The notes under the pieces: generated by a model | Told to the model about the DNA's origin: nothing | The model's input: the letters and a program-made list of their open reading frames with translations, nothing else | The model's database searches: none | Shown here: positions 40,924-45,835 of the stretch, one piece after another | How the letters are laid out: each line of letters opens with the position of its first letter | Position numbering within the stretch: the stretch's first letter is position 1 | Source: an uncultured Fimbriimonas sp. | GTDB taxonomy: Bacteria; Armatimonadota; Fimbriimonadia; Fimbriimonadales; Fimbriimonadaceae | DNA length: 45,835 nucleotides | Assembly: GCA_945952345.1 (NCBI GenBank) | Contig: CAMFIS010000009.1 | Location: forward strand, 1 to 45,835 | Reading direction: 5' to 3' | Program-made: the position numbers and the translations under genes

Positions 40924-41679
40924 GTGCCTCTGGATATCGCCGTCCTGAGCCCCGAGAAGACTGTTCTAACTTACCGCCTAGCCGGGTTGGGAAGTCGCGC
41001 CTTGGCGCATTTTCTCGATGTGCTTTTCATCGGCATGTTCTTGTATGCCCTTCTCACGCTGTTCGCCATCGTTGGATTCACGTTTGGTCGGCAGGGCGGA
41101 GAAGTCGTCATGGGCGTCCTGATATTCATCACCAGCCTCTTTCCATTCGCATACTTCATCTTCTTCGAAGGATTGTGGAACGGACAAACTCTCGGCAAAA
41201 AGATGGCAGGCATTCGGGTACGAATGGCCGATGGCACACCGGTGACCTTCGCGGCATCGACGGGCCGGAACCTTTTACGTGTTGCCGACTTCCTTCCGGC
41301 GATGTACTTCATCGGAACGATCTCGATGTTTGTGAACCCCAAGCTTCAGCGCGTAGGCGACCTTATCGCGGGAACCATCGTGACGCATGAGGTCCGCGCA
41401 ATTGCCAGCTTCAGCGTGGCCCCCCACCGCGTAGGCGTGCACCCACTCGAGCATCTGGTGGGCGAGCTGAGGAACATGACCGACGCCCAATACAATGTGC
41501 TGCGACGTTACTGCGACCGTTTTCCGGAACTACCCGGCGAGGTTCAACGCCACCTCACCGAAACCGTATGGCTGCCCATGGCCGAGTTCTTGGGCGTGAA
41601 GATGCAATCCGACATCCACCCGCTGTACCTGGCCGAGGCGACGGTCATGAAATATGGTCGTGTGCGAGGGTTGTTGTAA
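40924..41679 (+). CDS. RDD-family membrane protein
   Basis: A 251-residue protein with the RDD domain: YRLAGLGSRALAHFLDVLFIGMFLY (Arg-Asp of the family), a second helix about 55-80, the GQTLGKKMAGIRVRMADGTPVTF loop and a third helix, then LQRVGDLIAGTIV. The C-terminal 90 residues are soluble. RDD proteins are often found with DUF58 genes, as here, in a membrane-complex neighbourhood; transport or regulation has been proposed, nothing specific is shown. It starts with GTG and has no ribosome site in the 22-bp divergent spacer. Confidence 0.87.
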   Translation: MPLDIAVLSPEKTVLTYRLAGLGSRALAHFLDVLFIGMFLYALLTLFAIVGFTFGRQGGEVVMGVLIFITSLFPFAYFIFFEGLWNGQTLGKKMAGIRVRMADGTPVTFAASTGRNLLRVADFLPAMYFIGTISMFVNPKLQRVGDLIAGTIVTHEVRAIASFSVAPHRVGVHPLEHLVGELRNMTDAQYNVLRRYCDRFPELPGEVQRHLTETVWLPMAEFLGVKMQSDIHPLYLAEATVMKYGRVRGLL

Positions 41680-41880
41680 GTTTTGTGGATAGCGTGGGGA
41701 AAGGTGCGGAAAAGCCCGGAGGCATGGAAAACCTCACAAAATACTCGAAGTTTTCCACGGTTTCTTGAGCGGTTCGGGTTAGCATCACGACGGGTACAAA
41801 GACTGGGTCGATATCCCCAAATCCACACCCTTAATAAGAACAATAATCCTTTCATTCAGGAGAAGCAATTTAAAGAGAGG
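41680..41880. other. Candidate replication origin (oriC) segment
   Basis: Within about 150 bp after the RDD gene there are five words close to the DnaA box TTWTCCACA: TGTGGATAG (41684-41692), TGCGGAAAA (41705-41713), CATGGAAAA (41723-41731), TTTTCCACG (41751-41759) and AAATCCACA (41819-41827). An AT-rich stretch follows (41829-41875). recF and dciA lie just downstream, genes to the right are all plus and those to the left mostly minus, and parS half-sites lie at 45091-45119. No dnaA or dnaN is in the window and no box is a perfect match. Confidence 0.4.
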
Positions 41881-42272
41881 GGTGGGGAAAGCCTTTTGGG
41901 GGGCCGCCTCTTTGGAAGGGAAGATATCTCGATCACGGTGGGGTTTCTCCGGAACGGATTAGGTTTGCCGAATATACGCAGATTTGATTTGGTGAATTCG
42001 GCTCACTCCGAAGTAGATAGGCAGGCCGGGCAAGATGCTTGCACGATCCGGAGGATCACAGCTGGTAGCCAGGGTGTCGCAGCGAGGAACGAGCGGAGAC
42101 CCCTGGATAGAATCCGAACAAGTGAAAGTCCAAGGAGCGAAGCGACCCCGCCGATAGGCGGCAATATTCGCTTACTAGCCGTTCAGATCAAAGGATCATT
42201 GAGCCATATCCTAGAGAGTCGAACTCTACAATCTCCGACGGGTTCTGAACGTGCACTCTGGAGCCTTCACCC
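41881..42272. other. Spacer upstream of recF
   Basis: No supportable gene, although an open frame of 197 codons (41683-42276) crosses it. A segment at about 42060-42160 has CCAGGGTGTCGC...GCGGAGACCCCTGG and AAGGAGCGAAGCGACC words like those at 7830-7950, so it contains dispersed repeat sequence. The recF promoter is not recognisable. Confidence 0.6.
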
Positions 42273-43367
42273 ATGAGCTTCGCTGTTCGCCACCTGAAGC
42301 TGAACAACTTCCGGAATTTCGCCCATCTCGAACTCGACATCCCGCCTGGCTTCACCATCCTCACCGGTCAAAACGCGCAAGGCAAGACCTCCATCCTCGA
42401 ATCCCTCTACTGGCTCTCGACGACGCGAATGCTGCGTGGGGTGCGAGATGCCGAAGCGATCCGCCAAGGCGAGCACGCCTGCGTGGTGGAAGCGGAACTC
42501 GTAACCGGCACCCACATCTCGGCCACTTTGGAAGCCGGAGCGAGGAAGAAATTCTTTCTCAACGGAGCTTCGTTGCCTCGTGCCTCCGACGTCATCGGAC
42601 GCTTGCCCAGCGTCGTCATTTCCATCTTCGATCTGGAGATCGTTCGCGGTGACCCGTCGGATCGGCGAATGTTCCTCGACATCGAACTGTCCTCGTTATA
42701 TCCCGCCTATCTGCGCCACCTCTCGATTTACAAACGAGCCTTGGAGCAGCGCAACGCCTTATTGAAGATGGCTCAGGAGAGGCAAATCGACGGGTTCTCG
42801 TTCGATACGTGGGAAGAGCCGCTGGCCAAAGAGGGCGCCCAGATTCGTCGCATCCGAACTGAGTACATCGATTCGCTTGCGCCTCGGGTGACCAGTCTGC
42901 ATCAGCAACTCAGCAGTCAACCAGAATTCCTCGCCCTTCGATATTCGATGAAGGATGAAGCTTTGACCGAAGAGGCATTGCTTCAACGGTTGCAGACCAC
43001 ACGCGGAGCCGACATCCACCGTGGATCGACCCAAATCGGACCGCATCGCGACGATATCGAAATCCTCGTCGACGAGAAAGAAGCGAGGCTGTTTGGGTCG
43101 CAGGGTCAGCAGCGCACCGCCGTCATCGCCCTCAAGCTCGGAACCCTCGAAATGGCGAAGGAGCATTTGGGTGAAGCGCCACTGTTGCTTCTCGACGACA
43201 TGCTCAGCGACTTGGATGCCGAGCGTAGGGCCCGCCTTTGCCACGTAGTGGCTTCGGAAGCGGGTCAGGCCATTCTTACGTGCACCGAGGCCAGCGCCGC
43301 CGGAGAAGAGATTCTGGACCGTTCCAAGGTGTACTCTGTACAGCAAGGAGTCGTGACTGCGCCATGA
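42273..43367 (+). CDS. recF: DNA replication/repair protein RecF
   Basis: SMC-like ATPase of 364 residues that helps RecOR load RecA at gaps. It starts with RHLKLNNFRNFAHLELDIPPG, then Walker A GQNAQGKTS (about 30-38). It has the FLDIELSSLYPAYLRHLSIYKRAL segment, the signature GSQGQQRTAVIALKLG and Walker B LLLDDMLSDLD. These are all hallmarks and the length is normal. It overlaps dciA through ATGA, so the two are translationally coupled. dnaN, its usual neighbour, is not present here. Confidence 0.97.
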   Translation: MSFAVRHLKLNNFRNFAHLELDIPPGFTILTGQNAQGKTSILESLYWLSTTRMLRGVRDAEAIRQGEHACVVEAELVTGTHISATLEAGARKKFFLNGASLPRASDVIGRLPSVVISIFDLEIVRGDPSDRRMFLDIELSSLYPAYLRHLSIYKRALEQRNALLKMAQERQIDGFSFDTWEEPLAKEGAQIRRIRTEYIDSLAPRVTSLHQQLSSQPEFLALRYSMKDEALTEEALLQRLQTTRGADIHRGSTQIGPHRDDIEILVDEKEARLFGSQGQQRTAVIALKLGTLEMAKEHLGEAPLLLLDDMLSDLDAERRARLCHVVASEAGQAILTCTEASAAGEEILDRSKVYSVQQGVVTAP

Positions 43368-43774
43368 ACCCAATCCAGCATCTGCTGAATTCCACGGTGG
43401 TACCGCCGGAGGTTTTGCGCGCGTCGCGGGCGATCTCGACCATGAAAAAGTGGGAGATCGTGGTGGGGAAGGAAATGGCAAACCGAAGCTGGCCGGAGAA
43501 GTTTGACCATGGCACGGTTTGGGTGGCGGTGACCGGCTCGGCTTGGGCGCAGGAGCTGCGGCTGCAGAAGGACGAGATTTTGGCTCGCCTGAACGATATG
43601 GCGGGCGACACGAACCTCTTTGTGAACATCCGCTTTGGAGTTCGTCCGCTCAAGAAGGCAGTGATTCTTGGCGAATCTCTTGACGAGACCGCCGAAACCG
43701 AAGGACTTTCCATCCGCGAAATCGCCGAACGACGCCTGAAGGAATGGCATCGTGGCGAGGGAACTGAAAGCTAG
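43364..43774 (+). CDS. dciA: DciA-family (DUF721) helicase-loading protein
   Basis: A 136-residue DUF721/DciA protein, which in bacteria lacking DnaC helps load the replicative helicase DnaB. The core motif is MKKWEIVVGKEMANRSWPE, then GTVWVAVTGSAWAQELRLQKDEILARLN and NIRFGVRPL. The start is the ATG at 43364 overlapping the recF stop; the longer frame to 43238 is inside recF. Its place next to recF matches the common dnaN-recF-dciA-gyrB arrangement. comEC overlaps its end by 23 bp. Confidence 0.9.
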   Translation: MNPIQHLLNSTVVPPEVLRASRAISTMKKWEIVVGKEMANRSWPEKFDHGTVWVAVTGSAWAQELRLQKDEILARLNDMAGDTNLFVNIRFGVRPLKKAVILGESLDETAETEGLSIREIAERRLKEWHRGEGTES

Positions 43775-45077
43775 GCCGCTTTTTCTGATCCTCGCCGGAC
43801 TTCTGTTCGGGCTCACCTTTCCCTCCATCTCTTGGCTATTTTGCCTTGGCATTGGCGCGGCAATCATCTATCGCCAAACTTGGCTCGCGGTTGTCTGCTT
43901 CGGGGTTTTCATTGCGGGTTTCCTTTCGCTTTGGCGAACTCCGGCTTCCATCTTGGGGCCTGGAGACTTTTCGGGGCGAGTGGCTATCCACTCGTTCCCT
44001 AATTTTTACAAAGGAAAGAACCTTTACGCTTTCGAATCTTTGTCTGGTGAGCACACCACCGGCATCCTCCGCGTCGAGCCTTCGGTGTCCCTCTCGCCGG
44101 GAACCGTGGTGGAAGTCGCTGGCCACGCCAACGATACTCGCAGCGGGAGCCTGACCCCTTCCTCGCTTCGAGTCATTTCCAGCTATCGCTTGTTGGATTG
44201 GCTGGTGATCATTCAACGCCGTGCGATCGACCGCACCAACGAGCTCTTTGGTCGTGAGGATGGATCATGGGTGACGGCGCTCACGTTCAACTTTCCGTCC
44301 GATCTCAGCTCGGAAGAGAAGTCAGACTTAAGGTTTAACGGCACCTACCACATGGTCAGTGCGAGCGGCATGCATGTGTGGGTCATCGCCTTTGCCTTGC
44401 ATGGCTTGTTGAGGTCACTTGGGCTCGGGAGGCATTGGCAGTTGCTCGCCGTATTCTTGCTGCTGCTGGCATATTGCAGCATCACCGGCTTCCATGCGCC
44501 TACCCTTCGCGCCGCGATGATGTGGCTCATTGCATCCTCTGCCTACCTCTTTCGCCGCTCGCCCGACGGGCTTTCTGCGCTCAGTCTCTCCGCCCTCTTG
44601 TGGCTCTTCTTCGTGCCCTCGGACGCCTTCACCGCAGGTTTCCAGCTTTCGTACATCGTCTCGGGCAGCTTGCTGCTCTGGTTCGAGAGGCTCCGCTTCG
44701 AAGGGTACAAAAGTCGCCACTTGTTTGAGGCCTCGTTCATTGCCATGCTCGCCTCCGAACCGCTGGCTTCGTGGTGGTTTGGGCAGATGATCTTCATCGC
44801 TCCGGTGAGCAATCTGCTCATCGAGCTCCCTTCGCAGGCGGTGATGATTCTCGGCTTTCTTTGCCTGATTCCTTTGGTTGGCAATGTGCTGGTGTATGTG
44901 GCAAAGCCGCTGATCTGGTGGATGAAGTGGACAACCCAGTTGACGGCTGGCTTCCCGCTGCTACTGATGAATCGCTATGCCCTTCCGCCTTTCGTATTGG
45001 TGCTCTACTATGCCTTCTTGCTGTGGGTCTTCCTGGGGCAAACACCAACGCTGCGGAATCCGTTTAGAAAGGCTTGA
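43752..45077 (+). CDS. ComEC/Rec2 competence-domain membrane protein (short form)
   Basis: A 441-residue inner-membrane protein. After a hydrophobic N-terminus and an OB-like soluble part (about 70-150), the competence core starts with LTFNFPSDLSSEEKSDLRFNGTYHMVSASGMHVWVI, the equivalent of the HLLAISGLHV motif. Many membrane helices follow to the end. Full-length ComEC is about 700-800 residues and ends in a metallo-beta-lactamase domain; here that domain is missing and the protein ends in RNPFRKA. It may work with a separate nuclease in DNA uptake. The GTG start at 43752 overlaps dciA. Confidence 0.88.
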   Translation: MARELKARPLFLILAGLLFGLTFPSISWLFCLGIGAAIIYRQTWLAVVCFGVFIAGFLSLWRTPASILGPGDFSGRVAIHSFPNFYKGKNLYAFESLSGEHTTGILRVEPSVSLSPGTVVEVAGHANDTRSGSLTPSSLRVISSYRLLDWLVIIQRRAIDRTNELFGREDGSWVTALTFNFPSDLSSEEKSDLRFNGTYHMVSASGMHVWVIAFALHGLLRSLGLGRHWQLLAVFLLLLAYCSITGFHAPTLRAAMMWLIASSAYLFRRSPDGLSALSLSALLWLFFVPSDAFTAGFQLSYIVSGSLLLWFERLRFEGYKSRHLFEASFIAMLASEPLASWWFGQMIFIAPVSNLLIELPSQAVMILGFLCLIPLVGNVLVYVAKPLIWWMKWTTQLTAGFPLLLMNRYALPPFVLVLYYAFLLWVFLGQTPTLRNPFRKA

Positions 45078-45083
45078 AGACTC

Positions 45084-45120
45084 TACATTGTGTTTCACCA
45101 AACAATGTAACGTGAAACAC
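45084..45120. promoter_or_regulatory. Split parS-like site with interlocking inverted repeats
   Basis: TGTTTCAC (45091-45098) and GTGAAACA (45112-45119) are the exact two halves of the 16-bp ParB site TGTTTCACGTGAAACA, separated by 13 bp (45099-45111). A second perfect inverted pair, TACATTGT (45084-45091) and ACAATGTA (45102-45109), interlocks with it. In RNA this would be an H-type pseudoknot arrangement (stems 1-2-1'-2'). It lies in the valS leader, about 100 bp before the start codon. Confidence 0.55.
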
Positions 45121-45214: not shown

Positions 45215-45835
45215 ATGGAAATGAAAGAGATTCCGTCTCGTTACGAGGCGACGAATGTTGAATCGAAATGGTATGCCGCTTGGGACCAAGCTGGCCTCTT
45301 CTCACCTTCGGCCGATACCAGCCGCGAACCATACTGCATCACGATCCCCCCACCCAACATCACGGGCTCGCTGCACATGGGCCACGCCCTCTGCTATCCC
45401 ATTCAAGATGTCCTTGGCCGATACCAACGACTGCTCGGCAAGCGCGTTTTGATCCTGCCTGGGCAAGATCACGCGGGCATTGCGACTCAGTCAGTGGTCG
45501 AAAAGCAGCTTCGAAAAGAGGGCTCCAGTGGCGCGCAACTCGGCCGTGAGAAGTTCACCGAGCGAGTTTGGGAGTGGCGAAAAGAGTCCGGCGATACAAT
45601 TCTCACCCAGCTGAAAGCGCTTGGCTGCGCGTTCGACTGGTCGCGTCTGCGCTTCACCCTCGACGACCATTACGCCACCACGGTTCTCAAAGTTTTCATC
45701 GATTGGTACAACAAAGGTTTCATTTACCGCGGCAAACGTGTTGTCAACTGGGATCCGAAGCTGAAGACTAGCGTCTCCGACATCGAAACCCTCCGCGACA
45801 TCCGAAAGGGACATCGCTATGACATCCGCTATGAC
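45215..45835 (+). CDS. valS: Valyl-tRNA synthetase, N-terminal part (cut by window end)
   Basis: The first 207 codons of the class I synthetase that charges tRNA-Val. After EIPSRYEATNVESKWYAAWD comes YCITIPPPNITGSLHMGHAL with the HIGH-type signature HMGH. GKRVLILPGQDHAGIATQ follows, and then the start of the connective region (FDWSRLRFTLDDHY, FIYRGKRVVNWDPK), where the GQDHAGIATQ segment is typical of ValS. The frame is open to the last base, so the gene continues outside. The ATG at 45215 has AGGA eight bases before it and GGAGG farther upstream. Confidence 0.95.
   Translation, partial: MEMKEIPSRYEATNVESKWYAAWDQAGLFSPSADTSREPYCITIPPPNITGSLHMGHALCYPIQDVLGRYQRLLGKRVLILPGQDHAGIATQSVVEKQLRKEGSSGAQLGREKFTERVWEWRKESGDTILTQLKALGCAFDWSRLRFTLDDHYATTVLKVFIDWYNKGFIYRGKRVVNWDPKLKTSVSDIETLRDIRKGHRYDIRYD

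Follow-up and report, generated by a model that had tools for sequence, protein, structure and literature searches.

A very probable chromosomal origin of replication upstream of recF, with dnaA and dnaN located elsewhere, in a Fimbriimonas bacterium

The genes dnaA, for the initiator, and dnaN, for the clamp, often sit at the bacterial origin of replication. The locus described here raises the question of whether a chromosomal origin (oriC) may lie beside recF while both of these genes are located elsewhere. The window, that is, the whole stretch of DNA analysed, is a contig of 45,835 bp (C9) from a 304-contig draft genome. The initial annotation had proposed an origin in its gap between an RDD-family gene and recF, and this placement was supported by a conserved array that is nearly unique to the region upstream of recF, by a nearby parS and by the displacement of dnaA and dnaN. 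We consider 41684-41891 to be very probably the chromosomal origin of this bacterium, with a probability of about 0.92 judged from sequence comparison. The kind of element is known, whereas its place is unusual, as are two of its details, namely the polarity of the DnaA trios and a split parS. The features of the region are as follows.

40924-41679, plus strand: RDD-family membrane protein gene (Pfam PF06271, E=1e-19), left border of the origin
41684-41692, minus strand: box 1, DnaA-box-like CTATCCACA, spaced 67 bp from the box at 41751 on the plus strand
41695-41703, minus strand: weak DnaA-box-like CTTTCCCCA, 2 mismatches
41705-41713, minus strand: DnaA-box-like TTTTCCGCA, from the box search
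41723-41731, minus strand: weak DnaA-box-like TTTTCCATG, 2 mismatches
41751-41759, plus strand: DnaA-box-like TTTTCCACG, from the box search, spacing conserved in relatives
41811-41819, plus strand: ATATCCCCA, counterpart of box 4 of the conserved array, 12 bp ahead of the triplets
41819-41827, plus strand: AAATCCACA, second of the tandem box pair, followed by CCCT (41828-41831)
41832-41846, plus strand: DnaA-trio-like run TAA TAA GAA CAA TAA, predicted strand-opening site from triplet conservation
41832-41875: AT-rich region, predicted unwinding element, 72.5% AT over 40 bp from 41835
41883-41891, minus strand: degenerate box 5 (plus-strand letters TGGGGAAAG), 36 bp past the triplets
41892-42272: extra stretch of about 380 bp that separates box 5 from recF, absent from close relatives in the alignment
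42273-43367, plus strand: recF (Pfam SMC_N), compared with recF of relatives
43238-43774, plus strand: dciA, helicase-loader-type gene (PF05258)
43752-45077, plus strand: ComEC-type competence protein gene (PF03772)
45091-45119: split parS, TGTTTCAC-13 nt-GTGAAACA, beside valS and 3.3 kb from the array
45215-45835, plus strand: valS, cut by the contig end; open frame, 85% identity to the G002 homologue

Between 41684 and 41891, the RDD-recF gap contained seven DnaA-box-like 9-mers, a CCCT spacer, five triplets and AT-rich DNA, hence a DnaA-box cluster in an intergenic region with a predicted unwinding element adjoining the boxes. Five near-matches to the DnaA box had been claimed within about 150 bp; our search of 41680-41830 found three matches to TTWTCCACA with at most one mismatch and seven with at most two. 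The AT-rich stretch said to follow them was also recovered, as the best 40-mer (start 41835) had an AT content reached by only 0.03% of the 40-mers of the window, and no part of the gap is richer in AT than the one with the triplet run. No perfect DnaA box was present in 41680-41830, and one-mismatch boxes over the whole window were fewer than in its shuffles. Since a perfect box is lacking, the window alone gives a modest signal and leaves the case open; it is conservation that makes the array convincing.

recF was present in 58 of 61 genomes, including that of the window, and we compared the DNA upstream of it in 29 genomes. Box spacing was kept in most of these 29 regions, in the order of one minus-strand box, two plus-strand boxes at a distance of 12 bp, a third plus-strand box about 88 bp further on, the triplets, and a degenerate minus-strand box. 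The spacing of 67 bp between box 1 and the box at 41751 was identical in G001, G002, G015 and G018, and in most relatives box 5 lay 34-39 bp from the triplets and the 3' end of the RDD gene adjoined the array. Across 27 sequences, A stood in the middle of the five triplets at frequencies of 0.96, 0.96, 1.00, 0.56 and 1.00, the third base was nearly always a purine, and the run was conserved with a period of 3. A strict box-and-trio pattern gave six matches in the 61 genomes, all six just upstream of recF and including two genomes of another family, with one match for the control pattern; the match in the window lies at 41822-41845. We also trained a sequence model on 20 genomes, leaving out the genome of the window and its close kin. 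Of its 35 top matches, 30 lay just upstream of recF, 10 of these in held-out genomes, and the window's own held-out match (41815-41849) was weak (E=0.07). Collectively, the array with its trio run was conserved in the family and occurred almost exclusively upstream of recF. A further contig scan with a RecF query returned mostly Firmicutes, with three useful armatimonad-like records. Record JADZEW010000015.1 (L189), deposited as a Methanoregulaceae archaeon, carries this bacterial recF region, on a contig of the same length (130881) as contig C15 of G030, and looks mislabelled or contaminated.

The Pfam matches confirmed the gene order RDD, recF, dciA and ComEC-type protein, and with it the earlier statement that recF and dciA follow the box cluster (SMC_N, PF05258). 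The switch in gene strand that had also been reported stood only in part: genes are mostly on the minus strand from 27.3 to 40.9 kb and on the plus strand after 40.9 kb, but switches of the same size occur elsewhere in the window, so that the switch is weak evidence. In close relatives recF comes directly after box 5, whereas in the window about 380 bp lie in between. A dispersed repeat of about 120 bp sits in this interval at about 42044-42167, and the same genome has tens of copies of it, full or partial, at 72-95% identity; the origin array is intact and lies upstream of it. A reading of the repeat in the gap as a structured RNA was rejected, as there was no Rfam match and the fold was ordinary (z=-1.37).

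A split parS had been noted 3.4 kb away, and its half-sites were indeed found beside valS, at the distance given above. We searched all genomes for TGTTNCAC-N(0-14)-GTGAAACA, with the reversed pattern as control. The pattern was present in 27 of 61 genomes, with 0 control matches, and in 20 of the 21 genomes with both features on one contig it lay within 2-18 kb of recF (median distance over the 21 genomes 5.3 kb; up to 12 kb in 19 genomes, 18 kb in one and 40 kb in G002), often between valS and an ABC-transporter ATPase gene. The complete genome G008 had a single match, 6.1 kb from recF. An origin-proximal parS is therefore present in canonical form in relatives and in split form in the window. 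The canonical site (TGTTNCACGTGAAACA) has the same half-sites, origin-proximal and in the same position beside valS, but it is contiguous, while the half-sites are exactly 13 nt apart beside valS in five genomes, that of the window included (G000, G002, G003, G006 and G035); here the split site holds the valS-side position at which many relatives carry a canonical parS. No exact canonical parS was found in these five genomes. In the genome of the window the contiguous 16-bp palindrome was likewise sought and set aside, as its near-matches were at chance level and no copy was exact. We found no precedent for a split parS in the titles and abstracts searched on parS variants.

Split sites were seen at 45091-45119 of the window and at loci L327 (on contig C78), L347, L348, L350 and L356. 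The genome of the window thus has two: the site at 45091 adjoins valS, and the site on C78 adjoins the genes that are the other neighbours of parS in G002 and G003. This sharing out of neighbours between two split sites suggests a rearrangement at the site. A gene for a small conserved protein lies beside the split parS at L327 (1032-1418), L347 (1526-1921), L348 (1514-1921) and L356 (1178-1504). The C78 copy gave a sub-threshold match to LAGLIDADG_3 (E=0.006), with no such match in its counterparts in G002, G003 and G035, and the idea of a homing endonuclease was dropped on both grounds.

In order to examine strand composition, we sampled skew in three relatives. In G008, once the gene-strand effect had been corrected for at four-fold sites, the T-A skew reached its minimum at 1.92 Mb, at recF (permutation p=0.037), and the T-A skew of G018 also fitted recF. 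The GC skew of G029 fitted recF (459 kb) and dnaA (298 kb) equally well, and the corrected GC skew of G008, taken alone, preferred a position at about 5.06 Mb but was noisy and not significant (permutation p=0.22). With T-A agreement in two genomes, a noisy GC signal and an ambiguous G029, skew is supportive but not decisive. A search of seven genomes for a dif site marking the terminus gave no convincing match. In other bacteria, some clusters of DnaA boxes serve in regulation or titrate DnaA. An array in the recF promoter region could in principle do the same, either mediating control of recF or of the RDD gene by DnaA or titrating DnaA, with the origin elsewhere. We regard this as improbable, since the trio run and the AT-rich region are kept in order, parS is only a few kb away in almost every genome that allowed the test, the T-A skew minimum of G008 falls at the same place, and no conserved cluster occurs beside dnaA.

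The displacement of dnaA and dnaN was confirmed by a location search, which gave one match for each in the genome of the window, on contigs C24 and C54. In relatives with long contigs both genes are far from recF, with dnaA 1.93 Mb off in G008. A better DnaA-box cluster next to dnaA, which had been named as an observation against the recF locus, was looked for, and none was found upstream of dnaA in the family: one-mismatch boxes amounted to 0.69 per 1500 bp there, compared with 3.1 per 340 bp upstream of recF. Outside the family, the DNA upstream of recF in G045 (family f2) had 11 box matches, of which nine were exact TTATCCACA and most lay within 400 bp of the gene; no Pfam match to dnaA was found in this genome, perhaps because the draft is incomplete. 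G037 and G038, from other families of the order, had four box matches each upstream of recF. Family f2 gave a mixed picture: in G051 (L051 / L320), twelve box matches, nine of them exact TTATCCACA, lie in about 310 bp downstream of dnaA, and no box cluster was seen at recF in genus g23. The position of the origin hence seems to differ within the order.

An origin near dnaA and dnaN is what has been published for Fimbriimonas ginsengisoli Gsoil 348, where GC skew and one DnaA box served to place it at 5.13 Mb, with a terminus near 4.39 Mb and a skew that was called jagged; the scattering of dnaA, dnaN, recF and gyrB was already noted (PMC4072686). We equated G008, a complete relative in the genus of the window (5,231,762 bp), with this chromosome. 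The corrected GC peak near 5.06 Mb and the cluster beside dnaA in G051 agree with such a placement, but the GC fit is not significant and the T-A skew is of opposite sign there. With the published terminus, an origin at 5.13 Mb would give arms of 0.74 and 4.49 Mb, compared with 2.46 and 2.77 Mb from recF; moreover, G008 has no exact parS away from recF, and dnaA of the family has no box cluster upstream. In G008 the array (1,929,664-1,929,706), parS (1,922,434) and the best-fitting origin by T-A skew (1.92 Mb) coincide. We therefore consider an origin near dnaA and dnaN highly improbable for these genomes, and the published position at 5.13 Mb probably wrong, with the origin instead at 1.92-1.93 Mb, upstream of recF (1.93 Mb). 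No placement of an origin at recF in Armatimonadota was found in the literature searched. A chance cluster of box-like words, to which the missing perfect box and the lack of one-mismatch enrichment over the window might point, is hardly credible given a background of 1.5e-5 for 150-bp stretches with at least seven boxes (2.4 Mb sampled from three relatives), the conservation across genera and the matches of the sequence model in held-out genomes.

The array at recF, which we take as the origin, resembles the basal unwinding system (BUS), defined by a DnaA box and three or more NAN triplets set off from it by a spacer no longer than 16 bp (PMC8287927, PMC10721633). The BUS-type oriC, as in Bacillus subtilis, likewise combines DnaA boxes, a spacer of 4-13 bp, a triplet run with a conserved middle adenine, AT-rich DNA and an origin-proximal parS (PMC8287927, PMC10721633). 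In the window, a box with at most two mismatches (AAATCCACA) is followed after 4 bp by TAA TAA GAA CAA TAA. Unlike the B. subtilis type, the array adjoins neither dnaA nor dnaN, and it has an extra minus-strand box 34-39 bp beyond the triplets. The polarity also differs: in Firmicutes (five loci) the triplets run 3'-GAT-5' outward from the neighbouring box and are carried by the strand opposite to that of TTATCCACA, whereas in the window the triplets and the TTATCCACA-type box closest to them share a strand. A standard BUS formed by the trios with box 4 was ruled out on this polarity, which fits the minus-strand box 5 at its distance of 34-39 bp.

From these features, DnaA would be expected to bind at this locus and open the strands, the helicase to be loaded, ParB to bind, and replication to proceed in both directions. 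DnaA from the distant dnaA gene would bind the box array and form an oligomer, which would open the AT-rich triplets, flanked by the last plus-strand boxes on one side and by box 5 on the other. Helicase loading would come next, probably aided by DciA, encoded 1.4 kb downstream, and forks would leave the origin both ways, while ParB on the parS beside valS, about 3 kb off, would mark the origin region for segregation. To account for the reversed polarity, the DnaA filament may grow from the far box 5, or DnaA at the near boxes may loop back to capture the strand. We propose only tentatively, as a possibility short of an even chance, that the origin is opened by reversed-polarity triplets in either of these ways and that some ParB proteins recognise half-sites split by 13 nt.

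In summary, our results provide the relatives of Fimbriimonas with a testable origin and probably correct the one published for F. ginsengisoli. They offer an example of a very probable origin that has stayed next to recF with dnaA and dnaN elsewhere, and the trio polarity and the split parS are natural variants on which the rules of DnaA and ParB action drawn from model bacteria may be tested.
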